Assembly: GCA_963920765.1 (NCBI GenBank)
Contig: OY987243.1
Span: 19,153,419-19,217,418, forward strand
DNA length: 64,000 nucleotides
DNA from: Ulota crispa
Taxonomy: Eukaryota > Streptophyta > Bryopsida > Orthotrichales > Orthotrichaceae
Direction of reading: 5' to 3'
In this document: positions 7,052 through 62,281 of the stretch, in pieces
How the letters are laid out: every line of letters starts with the position of its first letter
How positions within the stretch are numbered: the stretch's first letter is position 1
Program-made: the position numbers and the translations under genes
The notes under the pieces: generated by a model
The model's database searches: none
What the model was told of the DNA's origin: nothing
The model's input: the letters and a program-made list of their open reading frames with translations, nothing else

Positions 7052-7055
7052 TTAA

Positions 7056-7975
7056 CCCCTAAATGCCTAAGGGTGTTTTTTCTTGTTTTCGAAAGGTAGT
7101 TTTGAAGTTTTTGAACTGTGTTTGTAAGGTGTGTTTGTAAGGTTGTTATTAACATCAAAATAAAATTGTAATTGTTGAATCTTCAACTTCAAGGCTTTTA
7201 GATGGCGCTACTCAAAAAAACCCATTATGGTCATGCAGATTTTAAGATATTTGTGATTGAATGATGATGAGTATAGAATTTTTTTCTTTTTTTGGAGTCG
7301 CTCAAAACTTCAAATGCAAATTGGTAACTTTTGGATACAAAATTGGGAAGCAAACGCTTAGGATGCTTTTGTGTTTATTGTTGTTACTGCAAAACTAATG
7401 GCCCTCCTTCCAAATTCATGACCATAGTTTCACAAATGAGCTTGCAACGTAACAATCAAAGTGCAAACCCCTAATACAAAAAAAAAAAAAAAAAAAAAAA
7501 AAAAGCTTCAATTATTGACCAAAAACCAATTTGAATGAAAAAAAAACCTATGGTAATTGGATTCTAATTTTTATTACAAAGATATTCCAAGTGAAATGAG
7601 TCCAAAAGCACTTTTAGATTTCGTTAGATGTCAAAATTTCAGCAAAAAGGCCCTATGCCCAAGGGAGTGCCCAAAGGAAATCTTCACCTTTTGCTCAACT
7701 TCATGCCCGTATTTTCAATGTGGAAACTTCTCATAGGCTCTGTGACACTATTCACAACACTATTCATGACACACAATATATGCTTGCGGTTTACATTCAC
7801 AAAAAATAATTGGAATAAGATATGGAGGAAGTTGAATTTGAACGGTGAAGCTAACATCAGTGCACAGCTATTCCAAAAAGAACTTGAAAACAATAAAATC
7901 TATGTCTTGAACAGAGTTTCAAAGTTTCATGAAGTTTTTTGGACACCCAAATTGGGTGCCTTGGGCATTTAGGGG
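7056..7975. mobile_element. TTAA-flanked piggyBac-like MITE, 920 bp
   Basis: The left end is CCCCTAAATGCCTAAGG and the right end is the complement of CCCCTAAATGCCCAAGG, with TTAA at 7052-7055 and 7976-7979. The interior is AT-rich and non-coding, and contains a 24-base poly-A run (about 7480-7504). It shares internal sequence with 52210-53015 and has the same size class as 20822-21750. Confidence 0.85.
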
Positions 7976-8158
7976 TTAAGTTTCTCTGCAGATCTTATTC
8001 TAGATAATTTTCTTCCTTTTCATTTGGTTTTTTTTTTTTGCAAGGATTGCTTTTGTGTGCTATCAGCTTTTGTTTCTCATTTCTATTAAACTTTTCTAAT
8101 CATTATTTATTGTAATTTAGGTGAACTTGAAAGCCGCCTTGGAGTTAGGGCTGCTTTA

Positions 8159-11517: not shown

Positions 11518-11943
11518 TAAAAAAGGTCACTACAATGCATCAAACCAATTTAAGAACATGCAACCGATTGTTAAACTAAACTTGAGTCATCAATTCCCAA
11601 GGGGTTTATATTAGGCTTCAATAAAATTAAAAGGCCCAATTTCTAACCCACTAAGTTATATTGTGAATTCAGAATGGAAGGCCGTAACATGAAGTGACCC
11701 TTAACTACAAGCATTTCAATTACAAATGCTCACATTTGCTGAAGGATACGCTTAGCCTACACTTCGATCAATTTCTCTTTATATCTTTTTTACTTTTCAC
11801 CCTCCCTTTTCATTATTTTCCTCCCCCTTCCAGAGTTGCTGAATTAGACGTATATAATCGTGGATATCAATATGGATCTTCCGTTTTAGTGCAACCTAAA
11901 GATTATAAAACTTTCAGGTAATACATTATCTGGGTTAACTTAA

Positions 11944-12747
11944 CCCCTCACCGCCCAAGAGGCCCAAAACTGTCCATCACTGCATTTTCATTTGGAAATG
12001 ACTGATTTTCTTGAAGGTTGAAGATTGATTTTAGAGGTTTTTTTTTAAATATTCTTATGAAGTCTTGTTTTAGTATCAAAAATCTGATTTTGAAAATGAA
12101 TGATTATGATTTGTCTATTCAAGATTTTGTGCAAAGGTGTCCATTGCAAATTTTCACTTTTTAGTGTTGAGAGCTCTTGGAAATGAGCCTCAAGTACACT
12201 AGAACTTGGAGAAACAATCATATTAGAAACTTAATTAAAAAAGTTGTAGAGTAGATTTTAAGAAGCCATAAATTGATTAGGGTTACACATGTTGTACTTT
12301 ACATACTCATTTTTTGTGATATTCTCAATTGTAACACTACAAGGAAATGGTGTCCAAATTGCCATGCCTTAATTGACTAAATGTGTCCAAATTGACAAAA
12401 AAGTGTCCTAATTGACAAAAAAAATGTCCTAATTGACATGTCCCAATTGACAAAAAATGACCAAATTGGCAGTGTTCCCTTGTAGTGTGAATTTTAGATG
12501 TGAAAAGAGGATTGGAAGACTTCAAATCACTTTCACAGTTTTAACACCCACGTGATCAAATGTTATAATCTTTCAATCCATAAGTGATATTGTTGTGTTT
12601 TCTTTTCCTATATGCTCTCTAACATATCTACTTTGAAAGTGTATGGCTATAATTTAAAAAAAATTAATGCAACTCATCAAAATGTTGCCATTTTGTTCAT
12701 CCAAGAGCAGATTCTGAGATACCCAAAAGTCCATGGGCGGTGAGGGG
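11944..12747. mobile_element. TTAA-flanked piggyBac-like MITE, 804 bp, hosting a CACTA-ended insertion
   Basis: The ends are CCCCTCACCGCCCAAG and the complement of CCCCTCACCGCCCATG, with TTAA at 11940-11943 and 12748-12751. The interior is shared with 31320-31961, 51605-52190 (reverse) and 63653-64000 (reverse). A 153-bp element at 12335-12487 interrupts it, which explains its extra length over the 642-bp sister at 31320. Confidence 0.85.
12335..12487. mobile_element. miniature element with CACTA-type ends, nested
   Basis: It begins CACTACAAGGAAA and ends with the complement (TTCCCTTGTAGTG). The inside is short repeats of 'gtcctaattgacaaaa' and its complement. CACTACAAG is the classic end of plant CACTA (En/Spm) transposons. 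The flanking triplets are TAA and TGA, so no exact 3-bp duplication is visible. Similar units are at 13956-14074 and 55604-55733. Confidence 0.65.
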
Positions 12748-12766
12748 TTAATCCAGGCCACCTTAA

Positions 12767-20624: not shown

Positions 20625-20821
20625 TTAACAAACAATTTTAATGGTTTTAGTGGACACAAATCTGCACAAAAAATCACTCACGCAGGAGGTGTGTAAGCAT
20701 AAGTTAGAGGGCACAGAAAAGGAAAGGTGTAGAACGGGTAGAGGAAAATCATTTGACGAGTGTTGATTTGCTTCCAAATTTTAAATCATTAATGCTTCCT
20801 AGTGTCCAAATCATACCTTAA

Positions 20822-21750
20822 CCCCTAAATCCCTGAGTGTCCCCTCGGGGGGACAAATGGGATTTTGGGCAGGTACCTGCAGCTTCAATTTTTGTTTTGA
20901 TTTTTTGAAACTTATTTTGAAGATAGGAAAACACATTAGTTTTTGGGAAATATAATTTTTATTCCAATCCATGCCCAAAAGCAAAAGTTGTGCATAGATA
21001 AGCAAAATTTTATGCAAATTGGATAGCAAATTTTTTTTACAAAAACTTGAATTTTTTTTATTTTTGTTTTATTTCTCATAGGTTATAGTTTTGTCTACAT
21101 TTGAAGCTTTGATCCATTTCATTTGGACTGGTTTTGAGAAAGTTATGGACAATCTTGTTTTTCGGGCAGTTCAAGCATCTTCTTGAAAAAATAACTTATA
21201 AACTTCATTTTTGAATGCAAGTTTAACATTTTTTCAACAAAAATTGTTGAAAAGGTTGAAGTTTGCTTGCTAGAACAATCTCACCATTGGGATTATTGAG
21301 TTTCAATTCCATTGCAAGGTTATTAACAATTTAAGTTTTTGTTCAATCTCATACTGTCTTCTACCTAATGTTTTTTTTAAGAATGAAAATTAAGTATTTT
21401 TTGTTTTTGATTTTTTTCCAAAGATTCTCAACTCAAGTTTTCACTTTAAAAAAATACACCTCAAAATTTTGTGGTGCAAAAATTTTAAGTTAAAAAAGTT
21501 CAAAGTCAAATAGTCTAATCATGCAAGGTGCAAAAAAGTTTGTTTTTTATACTTTGAATGCAAATATCATGCAATCTGTGCTATCAAAGTTTTTGAATTT
21601 TTATTTCCACATTCTTATACTAGTATAGTATAAGATCCCACAGTTAGATATGCAAAAAGACCAATTTTCAAATTTTATTTTTTTTCTTTACAATAAAAAT
21701 GGCAATTTTGAATGTTTTTTGACAAAATAAAGGCCCCAGGGATTTAGGGG
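20822..21750. mobile_element. TTAA-flanked piggyBac-like MITE, 929 bp
   Basis: The ends are CCCCTAAATCCCTGAG and the complement of CCCCTAAATCCCTGGG, with TTAA at 20818-20821 and 21751-21754. Same size class as 7056-7975. AT-rich, non-coding. Confidence 0.85.
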
Positions 21751-21754
21751 TTAA

Positions 21755-26184: not shown

Positions 26185-28326
26185 AGCCTCACTCATCAAA
26201 ACGCATGAACAAGCTCTAGGCAATTTGATTTACACTTTCCTTATGCTGTGCTTCCATGCCACTTTTACCCTAGTTTTGAGATCAAACAATAGAATTAGAT
26301 TCTTTGCAAATAGGACTTGAATATGAATTTGTTGCTCCAATATTCCTTTGTAAATGAGGTAAATGAGTTGGTAGATTAAAAGACTATTACTTTGCTTTTT
26401 GAATTCGGGGTTTGTTGCAAACATGTTTCTGCATTTTTCGCTATTTTGTCCAAGGTTCACTTTCTTTGAAGTTGATAAAGAAGTCTTATACATTATCCAT
26501 ATACTTAAGTTACACGTCTTTTAAGGGAGTGTGGGGGTCATGTCCTCGGATCCATGTATTTAAGGATTGTTTTGCCTTTTTTGTTATTTTGATAAAAATA
26601 TTTTGTTTGGTTAACTAGATGTTAACATTATGTTGTTTAATTTTTCTGTAGATTGTTTTGTTTCTATTGATTTAAGAAATCTTGTCATTTGATCATGACA
26701 ATAGTGTTTTTGGAGTCAACTCTTGTACAATTGCAACCGATGTCTTCCTTGACCAAATCTACTCTCATGTTTGAGCAACAAATGTTGGGCTCATCATGTT
26801 AGTTTCTTTTAATTTTTCTCATTGAATGCCTAATTGAAAGATGAACTTTAGATGTTTCATGTGTCAAATATAAAAAAATGGTTCAACAAATTCAGTGAAG
26901 CCGCTTTATGTGCTAATTGGTCATAGCTATGAATTGTACTTCATATAGACCATCCAATGTAAGGGCCTCAAGGTGGGTATTTTGACAATTTCAACTTTAG
27001 TTTGTTCTATCAAACTGGAATACTGCTAAGCGCGCATTTCCTTGCTGGAAGATTTAGATTCTAATCATATTAATGTATATTGTAGTAGTCTTCCCACCAC
27101 TATACCATAGTAATGACAATAAGCATTTTTTGGAGTTTAGCTAAAATCAAAAACCCAATACTGGTACACTAAATAGCTTATTGTTTTACTTGCATGTGGT
27201 GATTTTGAGGCTATGAGGTTGAAGATACTATTATTTTTTGTCAAATATAATATGAAAGCTAAGTAAGAAGAGGCTTATTTTGTTGTCCAATATTATAGAG
27301 TAAACAATTTTTTGGCATCTATAGAAAATCTTCTCAATTGTCATGGTTGAAAATCCTAAACCGGCCTTTACAAGTTGTATACATTTAGTACAATAGAATA
27401 GAACAAATCTCAAAAAAATTATAAAAAAGTGAATGAGTTGCAATTAGAATAGGTTTTTGTGTCCTACTCTTGAGCACAATAAAAGAAGACTTGTGCAGTC
27501 TCTCTGTCATATCATGATACACTCTTTCTATTTATAAACAATTTTTGAATTTTTGATGCACTTTTATGAAGTCATTGCAATTTTTAATACTTGATGGCTC
27601 CTTTTGCTCTTCCAGATTGTTTATTATTAAGAGAGTAAAAAATGTTTCATCATTTTCTTGACTCTTGAACTCTCTTTTGGACTTCCAATAAACATAGTGT
27701 ATAAACAAGCTCATCCCTTCACCTTTGTGAAAGACACACATCATATGTAATTAAACATGTATGGAAATAAGAAGCTAATTCTATATATTTTTGGAATTAT
27801 ATGCAAAATCTCACAAGACCACCCATGTTTTGCTCATAAACCAAGAGATTTTTTTACGTTTGCCTTGCATAATCTATAGTTAAAAGAAAAATCCAGAAAA
27901 TCCAAAATTACATGAGTTATAGTTCACATGTAGATAAATGTGGCACACAATTTTGTTTAAAAAAAAAGGTCAAAGAAACATTTATCTAAGTTCTAAGTTT
28001 TTGTAAGGCCCCTGTTACACTGGAGCCAAAAAGTCATGGAGAGAAAGATTTCAATCAATGAGAACTTTAGGAATTGAGAAGACCCGTTACTTTAGATTGG
28101 AATTTTTTTTCAAGGGACAAGAAAATGAAAAAATAAGATGGAGAACACTTTAGTTCTCCATGATAATGAAAAGCACAAGTTTTGGGTCCTTGGAATTATA
28201 ATCAAGCCCAACTAAAGAGGTGGGTCTTACTAAAATTTTGGAGGACCAAAATCCTTGTAGTCAATCAAAAAAATTTGAAAAAATAATAATAAATTAATTA
28301 TTATTAATTTGACCCTTCTCACTTTA
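26185..28326. other. AT-rich intergenic sequence, nothing recognised
   Basis: No coding frame above 90 codons, no transposon ends that I can pair, and no RNA gene. Confidence 0.5.
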
Positions 28327-30109
28327 TAGTTGGGTCCATTAATCTTACAAACTGCCATTTTGAGGAATCCATATTTTTAAATGAAATGTGGAGTATAATT
28401 GGTGTATTTTTGTCCAAAAATTTATTACTGTATTCTCACTTAATCCCAATCAAGCATACCAAATATCAATTTCAGAAAAGCAAAACTTCATTTGTGGTGA
28501 AATTTTAAAGCAAAACTCCATGGTTTTACAAGGTATTTTATTAAAAACAATTGGTGGTGAATTTCTGAGATTTGATTTCATGGGTACAAAGGAAACATCC
28601 ATATTCACATCTTCCATGCTAAAAAATACTCCCTTAACCCCTTAGGGCCGCAGGAGGCAGAAACTGACTTTGTAGGTTTTGAAATGAAATTTAGGGTGTT
28701 TTACCAATTTTGGATCATGGGTTGACCAATTACAAACATGTAAGGAATGAAGTCTATTTTCACGCACACTTGTTTGATCAAAGTTTGGAATTACATTTTG
28801 TTGTAGAGAGAGTGATTCATCAGAAGGGGTATCGGAAAATTTGAGTGTTTAGTACAAATCACTCACTAAAATACCAACAAGAGGGTGACATCACCTGATG
28901 TCTTTAGGGACCAAGTAAATAGTGCCATGACAACAGCCAACCCAATTTTTCTTTGGCTTTGTACCTCCAATCTAAGCTTTTTAATCCTTTTAGGGTTGCA
29001 CAACAAAAATCACTTTTACGGTGTCACACTTCTTTTAAAAGAAACACATGGTCATAGATCAATACTATTCAAATAACTTGTCTAGTTAGGTTTTCTAACC
29101 ATACAAATCTTGTTTTTCTAAAAATGATCAAAATTTCATCATCTTTTCCACAATTTTTGCACCCTAACCACCCATGCCTTTCCTTCATCAAATACAACAA
29201 ATGGTACAACTTTTTCCCAAAATCCTAAGTTCAAGCCCTTCAACATGTCATGTATAAGAGAAGTGCACAATTTCAAAATCTAATTCTACTGTAGTTGCTT
29301 GTAGGAGCCATATATTCAACTTGTACAATCCAAACTTAATCCAATGCACCACCTTTCACTTAACTGATGTAGCACATATCATAACTAGATAGGTCAAAAA
29401 AACTTATGTGCTTATCTTCCAAGACCGCAGTTTACATCGGTACGGTTGGATTGTGCTTTTTACGTTTGACCTAATTGCAAAAAAGCCTAAAGCAATTAGT
29501 TTATCTAAAAGAATAGCCAGCTTGGAAAGCAGGCGGCCCTAAAGGGTTAAGTAACAAAAATTTGATCAATACAAGATTCAATGAAACTTGTGATAGGCCC
29601 AAATCTTGAATTTTTATTTTATTGTATGAAAATCAAATTTTGTTGCTTGACTCAAATATTGTGACTAAGTTTGTATCTTTGAACATGATTTCTTAATTAC
29701 TTGATAAAAAGCTAATTAAAAAATAAATCTATGTATTTTACAAGATTTGGGCCTATCACAAGTTTCATTGAATCTTGTATTGATCAAATTTTTGTTACTT
29801 AAGGGAGTATTTTTTAGCATGGAAGATGTGCATATGGATGTTTCCTTTGTACCCATGAAATCAAATCTCAAAAATTCATCACCAAATGTTTTTAATAAAA
29901 TACCATATAAAACCATGGAATTTTGTTTTAAAACTTCACCACAAATGAAACTTTGCTTTTTTGAAATTGATATTTGGTATACTTGATTGGGATTACGTGA
30001 GAATGCAATGATAAATTTTTGGACAAAACTATACCAATTGTGCTCCACATTTCATTTAAAAATCTAGATTCCTCAAAATTGCAATTTGTAAGATTAATGG
30101 ACCCGACTG
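28327..30109. mobile_element. Tc1/mariner-like foldback MITE (870 bp) split by a TTAA element
   Basis: The outer ends are TAGTTGGGTCCATTAATC and the complement of CAGTCGGGTCCATTAATC, flanked by TA at 28325-28326 and 30110-30111. The arms are strongly complementary over more than 300 bp. The left arm is cut at 28637 and resumes at 29551, while the right arm is continuous through 'gttacttaaggg' (about 29804-29815). This gives the sequence of the uninterrupted site. Confidence 0.85.
28638..29546. mobile_element. TTAA-flanked piggyBac-like MITE nested in a palindrome (909 bp)
   Basis: The ends are CCCCTTAGGGCCGC and the complement of CCCTTTAGGGCCGC. TTAA stands at 28634-28637 and 29547-29550. 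Because the host is a palindrome, its other arm shows that the target held a single TTAA (ccc-TTAA-gtaac). This is the clearest proof in the window of a TTAA target-site duplication. Confidence 0.92.
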
Positions 30110-30348
30110 TACAATACAATAAGAAGCCCTACCTCCAAAAGCCAACCTTTCAAAGGCAAGCTATGGCCCATGGAAGATTTTCTTCATAGCTTCTCACCTC
30201 TAGTGTAAAGAGGGCTAAATCCCCTTCACATGTTCAAGGTTTTACTTGTACTATTTAATACTTCAAAAACCACAACATTGGTGTCCACATATGTATTATG
30301 CACAAAGGGATAATGTTGAGCGTCCAAAAATCAATTGCAAATAAATAA

Positions 30349-31176: not shown

Positions 31177-31319
31177 CCCTAGTAAGTTACTGCATGACTT
31201 AGCACTTGGCCACTTGGAAGTGCATGAAACTCTCTAAATACTTGAATTTCACATGGTTTATGACTTGGAAGTTGTTAGTTTGTCTTTCTTAACTTCAATG
31301 TTGTTGGCATGCCATTTAA

Positions 31320-31961
31320 CCCCTAAATGCCCAAGCAACCAGATTTGAGTTGCAACAAAACTTTGAAGATGAATAAAACCTTATCAAATCACTATTTTCA
31401 ATTTTTTTTTGATATAAGTTGGATTTGAAGTCTATTTTCAACATCAAAAATCTGATTTTGAAAATGAAAATTGAAGATTTTTCTACTCAAGAATTTGTAC
31501 AAGGGTATCCACTGCAATCTTGAGTTTACTAGTGTTGGAAGATCTTGAAAATGAGCCTCAAATACACTAGAACTTGGAGAAAAAATCTCATTAGAAATCC
31601 ATTTAAAAAAATATATAGGAGTGGGTTTTGAAAACCGTAGATTGATTAAAGTTAAACATGTAATGACCTCAAATCTCATATTTTTTTGGTAACCAACTTT
31701 TTAGATTTGACATGTGAAATGAGGATTAGAAAACTATAAGTCACTTTTGCAGTTTTAACACCCTCAGGTTCAAACATTATAATCTTTCAAACTATAAGTG
31801 ATATTGTTGTGTTTCCTTCTCCCATGTAATCTCTAACATGTTAGTTTAAACTTATACGGTTACAACTGAAAAAAACTTGATGAAATTTTTGAAAAGGTTG
31901 GTTGATTGTTTTGTTTTATGGAAAGTCCAAGAAGCTCAGATAGGGCTTGGGCATTCAAGGG
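31320..31961. mobile_element. TTAA-flanked piggyBac-like MITE, 642 bp
   Basis: The ends are CCCCTAAATGCCCAAGC and the complement of CCCTTGAATGCCCAAGC, with TTAA at 31316-31319 and 31962-31965. The interior is the uninterrupted counterpart of 11944-12747. Confidence 0.87.
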
Positions 31962-31965
31962 TTAA

Positions 31966-35439: not shown

Positions 35440-35486
35440 TTACTCTAGTACTCAAAAGTCGAATTGAATTCCAAAGGGCAATTTAA

Positions 35487-35817
35487 CCCCTAAATGCCTG
35501 AGAACATCATATTTGTTAATTTGGGTCAAAACGGTCATTTTGGGACTTCTGAAAATTTGGGAAAATTGGGGTGATCACCCCAAACCAAGCCCCTTTGGTA
35601 CACGTGTCCTCACCTGAGAGGAGGAATTTGTGAGGGAAAAAATCTTAGTGGCTCAAATTGAATTTGATACCTTTGAATCTGGTTTGAGGTGACTATTTTG
35701 GATTGAGGTGGAGTACAAAATGGTACCTTTGTTTTTCCCAAATTAACGAATATGACGTTTGAGGCACCAAATTCTAGTAAAAATCACCAAAAATTTGGTG
35801 CCTCAAACATTTAGGGG
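35487..35817. mobile_element. TTAA-flanked MITE carrying a nested 'ATTCGTTAA' element
   Basis: TTAA at 35483-35486 and 35818-35821. The left end is CCCCTAAATGCCTGAG and the right end is the complement of CCCCTAAATGTTTGAGGC. Most of the inside (35503-35760) is a complete copy of the 'ATTCGTTAA' family, so only about 75 bp of the original interior remain. Confidence 0.75.
35503..35760. mobile_element. 'ATTCGTTAA' family MITE, nested
   Basis: It runs from AACATCATATTTGTTAATTT to the complement of AACGTCATATTCGTTAATTT and keeps 'cctcacctgagagg' and 'gaggtggagtacaaaatgg'. It sits inside the TTAA element around it. Confidence 0.75.
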
Positions 35818-35856
35818 TTAAAACTCTTATGCTAAACCAAATTATGTATAAATTAA

Positions 35857-36243: not shown

Positions 36244-36724
36244 CCGTTATTCATTAAATTGGGAAAAACAATACATTTTGGGACTTTCAAGAATTCAGGT
36301 GATCACCTAAATTCCAGCTCACAGCATTTTTTTGGGTACATGTACCCTCACCTGATAGGAGGAATTGACCAGGAAAAAAATCTTAGTAGCTCAAATTGAA
36401 TTTGATACCTTTGAATCTGATTTAACCCCTAAACGACCCAAAAGTCCTTTGCGGTTGTATGTATAGCCGTATATACTGACGTATTTGAGTTGCTCTGAGG
36501 GCTTTCCAAAAAAAATTATGCACCCACCATCATACAACCCTTCAATATGTATGATTGTAACATTTAATTTCCAACTGATCCAAACTTTTGAATATTTGTT
36601 GCGACCATATTTGGTACCGTATCTCTATAGCCCATGGGCCCTTCCGGGGTTAAAGTAACTTTTTGGGTTTCAGGTGGAATACAAAATGCTTCCTACATTT
36701 TTCCCAATTTAACGAATAACACGT
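36244..36724. mobile_element. 'ATTCGTTAA' MITE interrupted by a short TTAA element
   Basis: The ends GTTATTCATTAAATTGGG and its complement flank a body that is cut at 36425 and resumes at 36650. Joining the flanks restores 'gatTTAAagtaac', matching the intact copy at 25667 (reverse), which has one TTTAAAGTAAC. Confidence 0.8.
36426..36649 (+). mobile_element. short TTAA MITE, 224 bp
   Basis: CCCCTAAACGACCC to CCCTTCCGGGG, with TTAA at 36422-36425 and 36650-36653. Same length as 61015-61238. The target is readable (see host element): one TTAA became two. Confidence 0.92.
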
Positions 36725-60400: not shown

Positions 60401-62281
60401 GTATGTTCAGGTTGAGGAGATTTATGCATTAGTCCTAAGGTACTGAAATCCATCGATGTTGAAGAATCATGGCTTAGTTAGGTTCAATGGCATAACCAGC
60501 AGCACAATGGTTTTTTGCAATTCCTCTAAGGCATTTGTTAGAGTGGCATTGAAGTGATGGTCTGTATGGTTGTGTAATGCAGATGCCGCTATGGCACGTT
60601 TCATGTTGTCAACAACCACTACTCAGACGGGTGGGGCTTGTATGCAATTGGAGGCAGCGAAAACCCTATGATTCTTAGTCAAGGGAATGTTTTCAATCCT
60701 AGTAAACGGAGGGAGGTAAGTCCCATATTGTTCTTGCCTTGCCCCACCATGAGATGAAGCTAATTCAGTCTCACAAAACCTTATATTTGTTATATATATA
60801 AAAACGTGCGTGCATAAAACTATTCAGTAGTGCATGCAAAGAACTTCAAGCATTAAATGTAGGTTTACGTCTTGTTTACTGATTGTACGATCTAAAAGTC
60901 TTTCTCCATCATGATGTTTGGTTCTCCCTTTTATTCTTTTGAGCTATATTCATTTGTAACACCATATTCGTTAGTTTGGGAAAAACAAGTGTCCCACTTT
61001 CTACTCCACCTTAACCCCTGAACGCCCCGAAAGCCCTTTGCAGTCGTATGTATGTCTGTATGTACAAACGTATTTGAGCTGCTCTTAGGGCTTTCCAAAA
61101 AAAATTATGCACCCATCATCATACAACCCTTCAATATGTATGGTTGTAACACTTTAATTTTTGCTAATTCAAACTTTTGAATACTGGTTGCAACCGTATT
61201 TGGCACTGTATCTCTATAGCCCAAGGGCCCTTCAGGGGTTAAACCCAAAAAGTTACCTTAAACTAAATTCAAATGTATCAGATTCAATCTAAGCCACTAA
61301 AATTTTCCCTCACAAATTCCTCCTCTTAGGTGAGGACACGCGTACAAAAAAAACATTGAGCTCGATTTTAGGGGATCACCTAAAACCTTGAAAGTCCCAA
61401 AATGTACCGTTTTTCCCAAATTATCAAATATGATGTTTTGTGAATGTTGGTGTCTATTCCTTTTAGAGTTGTTACTTGGATTTTCAACTCTTGACACTGG
61501 TAAAATGTTCCATTTCCTAGATTTTAGTATGGAAAACTTCTACCTCCATTGAAAAAGTGTTAATATGTTCTTAGCAAAAGTATTGCAAGCAATGCAATTT
61601 TGATTCTATGTTCCGTCATAAATTTTCATGTTAATTTTCATGCCCTAGGCATTCACTGTCGACTTAGATTTTAGAGCTCATACCACAATCCTAGTTTCCA
61701 AAGCTTTGGGACACTTCAAAACTCATATATATTAGAATGTGTAGTTAATTTGCCCAATTGAACCCTTAGATGAATTCTTGGCTTAAAGTCAAGGACTTTG
61801 GGGCATTGAATTTTTGTGCCTGGAATTGTAGTTGTCAAAATCATGAATACTCAAACGTTACAAATTTAAACATGTAAGTTGTTTTAACAAATATAACCAT
61901 ACATGAGAAAACACATTTTCTGTGTAGAAAACGTGGATCACACTAAAATGTGTATCACGTTTGATGATATCTTGGTGTAACTTTCTACTGAGTGGTAACA
62001 AGTCCTTTTAATGGCATGAAAAAGTATACTTCATTTGCTTTGCTTTGCTTTGCTTTCAGGTGACAAAGCACATCGACGACGACGGACCCCTTTTCGAAGG
62101 GTGGGAGAAGTGGAACTGGGCATCCAAGGGCGACATTTTCCTGGGTGGCTCCTACTTCACAGGCTCCGGCTTCGACGCCCTCCACGTCGACAAGTACGCC
62201 GAAGCATTCAGCACTTCCCCGCGCCCGGCTCAGCTTGTGCCTGGCATCACCAAAAACGCAGGCCCCCTCACCTTCACCTAA
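57485..62281 (+). CDS. pectate lyase (PL1), secreted, with long acidic N-terminal region, six exons
   Basis: Exons 57485-57978, 58505-58983, 59321-59520, 60084-60187, 60583-60715 and 62060-62281. All are GT-AG with matching phases, giving 543 residues. Cleaves de-esterified homogalacturonan by beta-elimination in the wall, with Ca2+. Residues 1-24 look like a signal peptide ([16 protein letters not shown]). Residues 25-165 are Ser/Glu/Asp-rich with no known fold. The PL1 domain starts at about 190 with [13 protein letters not shown], then [24 protein letters not shown] (343-346), WVDH (356-359) and DGLLDA (367-372), which supply the calcium-site Asps. [16 protein letters not shown] (422-437) carries the catalytic-type Arg. 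The join of exon 1 to exon 2 rests on phase (GA|T), consensus sites and the need for a signal peptide, and is less certain than the rest. Intron 5 (1344 bp) holds two nested MITEs. Confidence 0.9.
60959..61438. mobile_element. 'ATTCGTTAA' MITE in intron 5 of the pectate lyase, split by a TTAA MITE
   Basis: The left part (60959-61010) ends 'ctactccacc' and the right part resumes 'acccaaaaagttacctt' at 61243. The intact copy at 25667 reads 'ctccacctcaaacctcaaaaagttac' across this point, so the host had TCAA/TTAA once. The element ends face each other as in other copies. Confidence 0.8.
61015..61238 (+). mobile_element. short TTAA MITE, 224 bp, nested in the intron element
   Basis: CCCCTGAACGCCCC to CCCTTCAGGGG, with TTAA at 61011-61014 and 61239-61242. 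Identical in length to 36426-36649 and inserted about 20 bp from the equivalent site of the same host family. Confidence 0.92.
62034..62059 (+). promoter_or_regulatory. pyrimidine tract made of TTTGC repeats at the last 3' splice site
   Basis: Four TTTGC units followed by TTTCAG form the acceptor of exon 6 of the pectate lyase. A microsatellite thus serves as the polypyrimidine tract, so its length may vary between individuals. Confidence 0.7.

Follow-up and report, generated by a model that had tools for sequence, protein, structure and literature searches.

The window, the whole 64,000-nucleotide stretch of DNA analyzed here, contains reading frames for a cytochrome c1 and for part of a GH9 endoglucanase. 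A third frame is pectate-lyase-like by eye and has no Pfam match. The structure chains closest to the cytochrome c1 are presumably those of Arabidopsis and mung bean. The genome also encodes a LEAFY DNA-binding domain with KPKMRDYVHCYALH (L091 and L092; G000:C4:16277526-16279258), the Asp of which we take to be the moss-type residue; one of the two stretches has a TAG. By this LEAFY gene, the host is probably a moss.

A long inverted repeat of a high-copy family, the host foldback, occupies positions 28325-30111 (unstranded; 874 bp once the insert is subtracted). The initial annotation recognized this foldback repeat and placed it at 28327-30109, limits that are corrected here. Self-comparison of the window pairs its arms at 28325-28637 with 29799-30111 (91%) and at 29547-29608 with 29741-29802 (100%). 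The left arm is interrupted by a 909-bp insert at 28638-29546 with TTAA on each side (28634-28637 and 29547-29550, both unstranded), and the other arm is intact, as previously read. Junction letters are ATACTCCC-TTAA-CCCCTTAGGGCCGC...GCGGCCCTAAAGGG-TTAA-GTAACAAA, and the complementary strand of the intact arm carries CCCTTAAGTAAC once. The insert is annotated as a non-coding piggyBac-type MITE on the forward strand, with a left terminal inverted repeat (TIR) CCCCTTAGGGCCGC at 28638-28651 (forward) and a right TIR at 29533-29546 (reverse; inward reading CCCTTTAGGGCCGC). The insert ends agree with the initial annotation. In the window copy, the last C of CCCCTTAGGGCCGC deviates from the family consensus CCCCTTAGGGCCGG.

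Genome copies of the host foldback were surveyed by scoring the best 40 of 2854 first-look candidates. Among the matches listed, paired arms mostly span ~860-880 bp. Six of seven copies read (window and L082-L087) start with GTACAGTYGGGTCC or a near variant; the window copy starts with TATAGTTGGGTCC. The foldback terminus is the complement of its start, and its right edge is GTAC or ATAC. Either these four bases are a palindromic target comparable to TTAA, or they belong invariably to the repeat itself.

At least 39 near-full-length copies of the MITE, the window copy included, are present in the 275-Mb genome, a lower bound obtained by scoring the best 40 of 187 first-look candidates. The others are 86-92% identical to the window copy. 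TTAA followed by the left-end pattern occurs 167 times in the genome at up to 3 mismatches (79 forward, 88 reverse), and the reversed control pattern occurs 0 times. Forty copies were fetched, and L020, L047, and L048 were excluded from the 37-copy counts because an end is missing or disrupted. The TIRs are short and begin with CCC (CCCCTTAGGGCCGG / CCCTTTAGGGCCGC). A CC[C/T]T-type TIR motif is given for piggyBac in passages of PMC2872659 and PMC10813416. Identity among the 37 copies is 86-95%, and the family looks old because even the closest pair is only 95% identical. C-to-T changes in these copies affect 25% of CG, 22% of CHG (CTG 31, CAG 20, CCG 13), and 5.8% of CHH positions, the pattern that would be expected as a mark of plant-type CHG methylation.

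TTAA is found on both flanks of 31 of the 37 complete copies, and the remaining 6 are altered on one side only. The next base outward is A in 17, G in 12, T in 5, and C in 3 copies on the left, and T in 16, G in 11, C in 5, and A in 5 on the right. The target-site duplication is therefore 4 bp, TTAA, since the four bases recur on both sides and the adjoining bases are not fixed. With outer bases this variable, a longer motif concealing a duplication of only 2 or 3 bp is also disfavored.

Uninserted sites were read at two loci. Nine other foldback copies have both arms among the matches listed; six were picked by arm spacing, site unseen, and all six (L082-L087) have exactly one TTAA at the insertion site. 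At the second locus, MITE copy L027 sits within a 224-bp repeat that is also found in the window. L027 itself reads CATACATA-TTAA...TTAA-A. In three paralogues aligned across the junction, the corresponding letters are CATACATA-TTGA-A, with a four-base site that differs from TTAA at a single position and is not duplicated. A fourth paralogue (window 56904-56783) ends too close to the junction, and L017 and L023 were dropped as further empty sites since their junction alignments are too divergent. The single four-base site implies that one became two and that the TIR does not include TTAA. The initial claim that one TTAA became two is thus borne out by the six empty foldback copies, the L027 paralogues, and the other arm of the foldback itself. 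Its stated counter-possibility, a TTAA fixed within the TIR, fails against the 37 copies and the empty sites.

From one site alone, TA, TTA, and TTAA duplications are indistinguishable, and the insert might be read as a Tourist-like MITE (PIF/Harbinger, 3-bp TTA/TAA) or a Tc1/mariner MITE (2-bp TA) with a preference for TTAA-like context. This is very improbable: four bases, neither three nor two, are duplicated around 31 of 37 copies with a variable base outside, the same four are kept once in empty sites, and the transposase linked to the family is that of piggyBac.

PF13843, the piggyBac domain, matched the genome 120 times, on contigs C1 to C11 and always above cut-off (best E 1.3e-73; 116 of 528 candidates scored). 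With four loci appearing in two rows each, the matches represent ~116 transposase loci. The domain was found in 0 of 14 control genomes. Most transposase frames contain stops. Locus L069 has a stop-free frame of 389 aa (PF13843 E 4.1e-67). This frame enters the profile at position 30, and its beginning has therefore been lost or is encoded by a separate exon. Two solved structures, piggyBat (2.6e-24) and T. ni piggyBac (7.6e-20), match it by sequence, and the three acidic motifs of L069 align in place with those of piggyBat. The DDD catalytic triad is intact in L069, and L078 and L079 each deviate at one position. Across 32 rows (25 distinct loci), D1 is kept in 28, D2 in 23, D3 in 27, and the next D in 28. 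A strict C-terminal Cys pattern, which introns or decay may hide, was found at 1 of 24 loci scanned (23 distinct), L066, and in none of the L069 clade in that scan. In L066 a Cys-rich motif, presumably resembling the piggyBac C-terminal domain, lies downstream of the transposase domain on the reverse strand at ~2812. Two other loci (G000:C1:1180697-1182079 and G000:C8:19570986-19572215) carry the piggyBac domain in two stretches and have long open frames of 563 and 472 aa with few or no stops. They are possibly intron-bearing younger copies or host-adopted genes.

The MITE was linked to one transposase clade by DNA comparison. L059, one of 20 transposase loci first fetched, matches the MITE interior; the initial 1.5-kb flanks were too short to include most element ends. 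In the wider stretch of this locus (L069), the transposase is preceded by MITE positions 2-159 and followed by positions 406-912, so that the order of the MITE is preserved. The three nearest transposases (L078, L079, and L080) are 71-77% identical to that of L069, and beyond this clade the best identities drop to 51% over a partial alignment and 49% over almost the full length. In L078, L079, and L080, with elements of 5433, 7102, and 5609 bp, the transposase is enclosed by the left and right MITE ends, and TTAA flanks each element at either end. The L069 element is ~5.5 kb, and both of its TTAA are changed. Thus all four transposase copies of the clade (71-100% identical) are framed by both MITE ends in the right order. 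No transposase is encoded by the MITE itself, and in these related full-length elements a DDE_Tnp_1_7 transposase lies between the same ends. The MITE corresponds to ~260 bp at the left and ~510-610 bp at the right of the 5.4-7.1-kb elements. Because both ends stand in order around a piggyBac transposase, it is a piggyBac relative that has lost its interior. L081 was rejected as a partner: it has an L078-like left end and no transposase match in 7.5 kb.

Another 26 transposase rows (24 distinct loci) were compared with the MITE consensus and showed no match. Of these, the 3 with 8-kb stretches (L088, L089, and L090) are the fair control because the other 23 have only ~1.5 kb per side and perhaps lack the ends. 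L090 has its own TTAA ends around the transposase at 920 (CCCCTCAACACCCC) and 6573 (TCCCTCAACGCCCC). The corresponding ends of L088 lie at 29 (CCCTTAGAGACCACC, close to the stretch boundary) and 6635 (CCCTTTAGCGACCATGG). For L089, a left end was not found in the 8-kb stretch. Between L049 and L058, 90.5% identity extends as far as a TTAA-CCCTTCATTGCC end and breaks off there.

The initial annotation had assigned the insert to the piggyBac superfamily and proposed a genome search for DDE_Tnp_1_7 transposases with TTAA and matching ends. That search was run and recovered L069, L078, L079, and L080. The assignment is supported by the transposase in elements with the ends of the MITE, the TTAA duplication, and the CCC ends. 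Kolobok and Sola3 also duplicate TTAA, and a MITE of either origin would require the piggyBac transposase between matching ends to be a coincidence. Such an origin is most unlikely, as four of four elements of one piggyBac clade share end and subterminal sequences with the MITE on both sides in the right order, and CCC ends suit piggyBac as described in the literature. The elements with these ends encode a DDE_Tnp_1_7 transposase, contrary to the refuting outcome named in the initial annotation, in which the ends would belong to a transposase of another superfamily.

Over longer aligned stretches the linked elements are ~68-73% identical to the MITE consensus; they are therefore relatives rather than demonstrated direct parents. 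The transposase frame is broken in three of the four, and among themselves the elements are 67-73% identical over longer alignments. The MITE burst is probably younger than the linked element copies, judging from MITE copies that are 86-95% alike against 67-73% for the elements. This difference, the decay of the linked clade, and the many divergent transposase copies in the genome would also suit a piggyBac-ended MITE last moved by a different piggyBac clade of the same genome. Cross-mobilization of this kind is a minority reading, though a more credible one than a foreign superfamily: the MITE shares up to ~500 bp of subterminal DNA, beyond the ends, with its own clade, and the two other transposase elements with ends read terminate differently.

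The insert is best explained, at a probability of about 95%, as a non-autonomous, internally deleted member of the piggyBac family in a land-plant genome, probably that of a moss. piggyBac transposons are excised at their TTAA edges and pasted via a 4-bp staggered cut. By analogy, a transposase from a 5.4-7.1-kb piggyBac element would bind the CCCCTTAGGGCC ends in trans. The MITE would be excised at its TTAA edges and reinserted into a new TTAA through a 4-bp staggered cut.

Other TTAA-bounded elements lie in the window. Seven candidates with CCCCTAAAYGCCC-like inverted ends (7052-7979, 11940-12751, 20818-21754, 31316-31965, 35483-35821, 36422-36653, and 61011-61242) are probably more piggyBac-type MITEs. 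The one at 20818-21754 is a 929-bp TTAA element with 3427 first-look genome candidates; the best 40 were scored, all near full length, and the others are 88-91% identical to it. MITE copies L013, L028, L033, and L040 abut the TTAA edge of other TTAA elements, back-to-back, and the window edges of those adjoining elements are at 11940, 20628, 31965, and 7052. It seems rather likely that piggyBac has undergone a large and long-diversified radiation in this probable moss, with >100 transposase loci, numerous clades each bounded by distinct TTAA-CCC ends, and thousands of TTAA MITEs, and is one of the main DNA-transposon groups there. Such a situation is otherwise described mainly in animals.

Widely used in genome engineering, piggyBac is mostly treated as an animal, fungal, and protist transposon. 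More than 100 widely divergent transposase matches in an apparent moss provide native plant material for testing descent against horizontal transfer, and for asking how plants silence piggyBac and how its MITEs affect genes. The link between MITE and transposase offers a route to classify the other TTAA-CCC repeats of the genome.

The initial annotation described piggyBac as rare or unreported in most land plants. This is only partly right. A passage of PMC12732532 calls plant occurrences occasional. "Unreported" is too strong because published papers already list piggyBac in land plants. Passages of these papers place PiggyBac among superfamilies present in every group surveyed, including land plants (PMC4438587), among plant DNA transposon superfamilies (PMC10794571), and among angiosperm MITE superfamilies (PMC10004981), and state that it occurs in plants (PMC2874221). 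A fern has 1230 annotated hits (PMC6890710) and a grass a single 75-bp hit (PMC8319324). No description of piggyBac elements native to a moss was found in the openly licensed literature, supplementary files aside; two "piggyBac" text matches in a paper on the moss Niphotrichum are the word "piggybacking". The kind of element is known; the novelty lies in tying the MITE directly to a transposase, in the empty sites, and in the scale reached in an apparent moss.

Like members of the piggyBac superfamily such as T. ni piggyBac and piggyBat, the elements described here combine TTAA duplication, CCC-starting ends, and a DDE_Tnp_1_7 transposase. Unlike those two, they have a plant host, probably a moss, and CCCCTTAGGGCC ends, and the copies examined are mostly decayed. 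The 5.4-7.1 kb of the linked elements falls within the 1.23-9.51 kb given for animal piggyBac elements in a passage of PMC10813416 and exceeds the length quoted for T. ni piggyBac (2.4-2.5 kb). The coral CMITEs and AmiPB piggyBac elements presented in a passage of PMC2872659 likewise place non-autonomous CCC-ended TTAA elements beside piggyBac transposases in one genome, and the AmiPB2 end CCCTTTAACGCCC resembles the ends found here. The coral CMITEs are ~100 bp, whereas the MITE here is 909 bp and in a plant. Angiosperm PiggyBac MITEs also form a named plant MITE superfamily; the passage of PMC10004981 that names it includes neither a transposase partner nor empty sites, both of which are present here.
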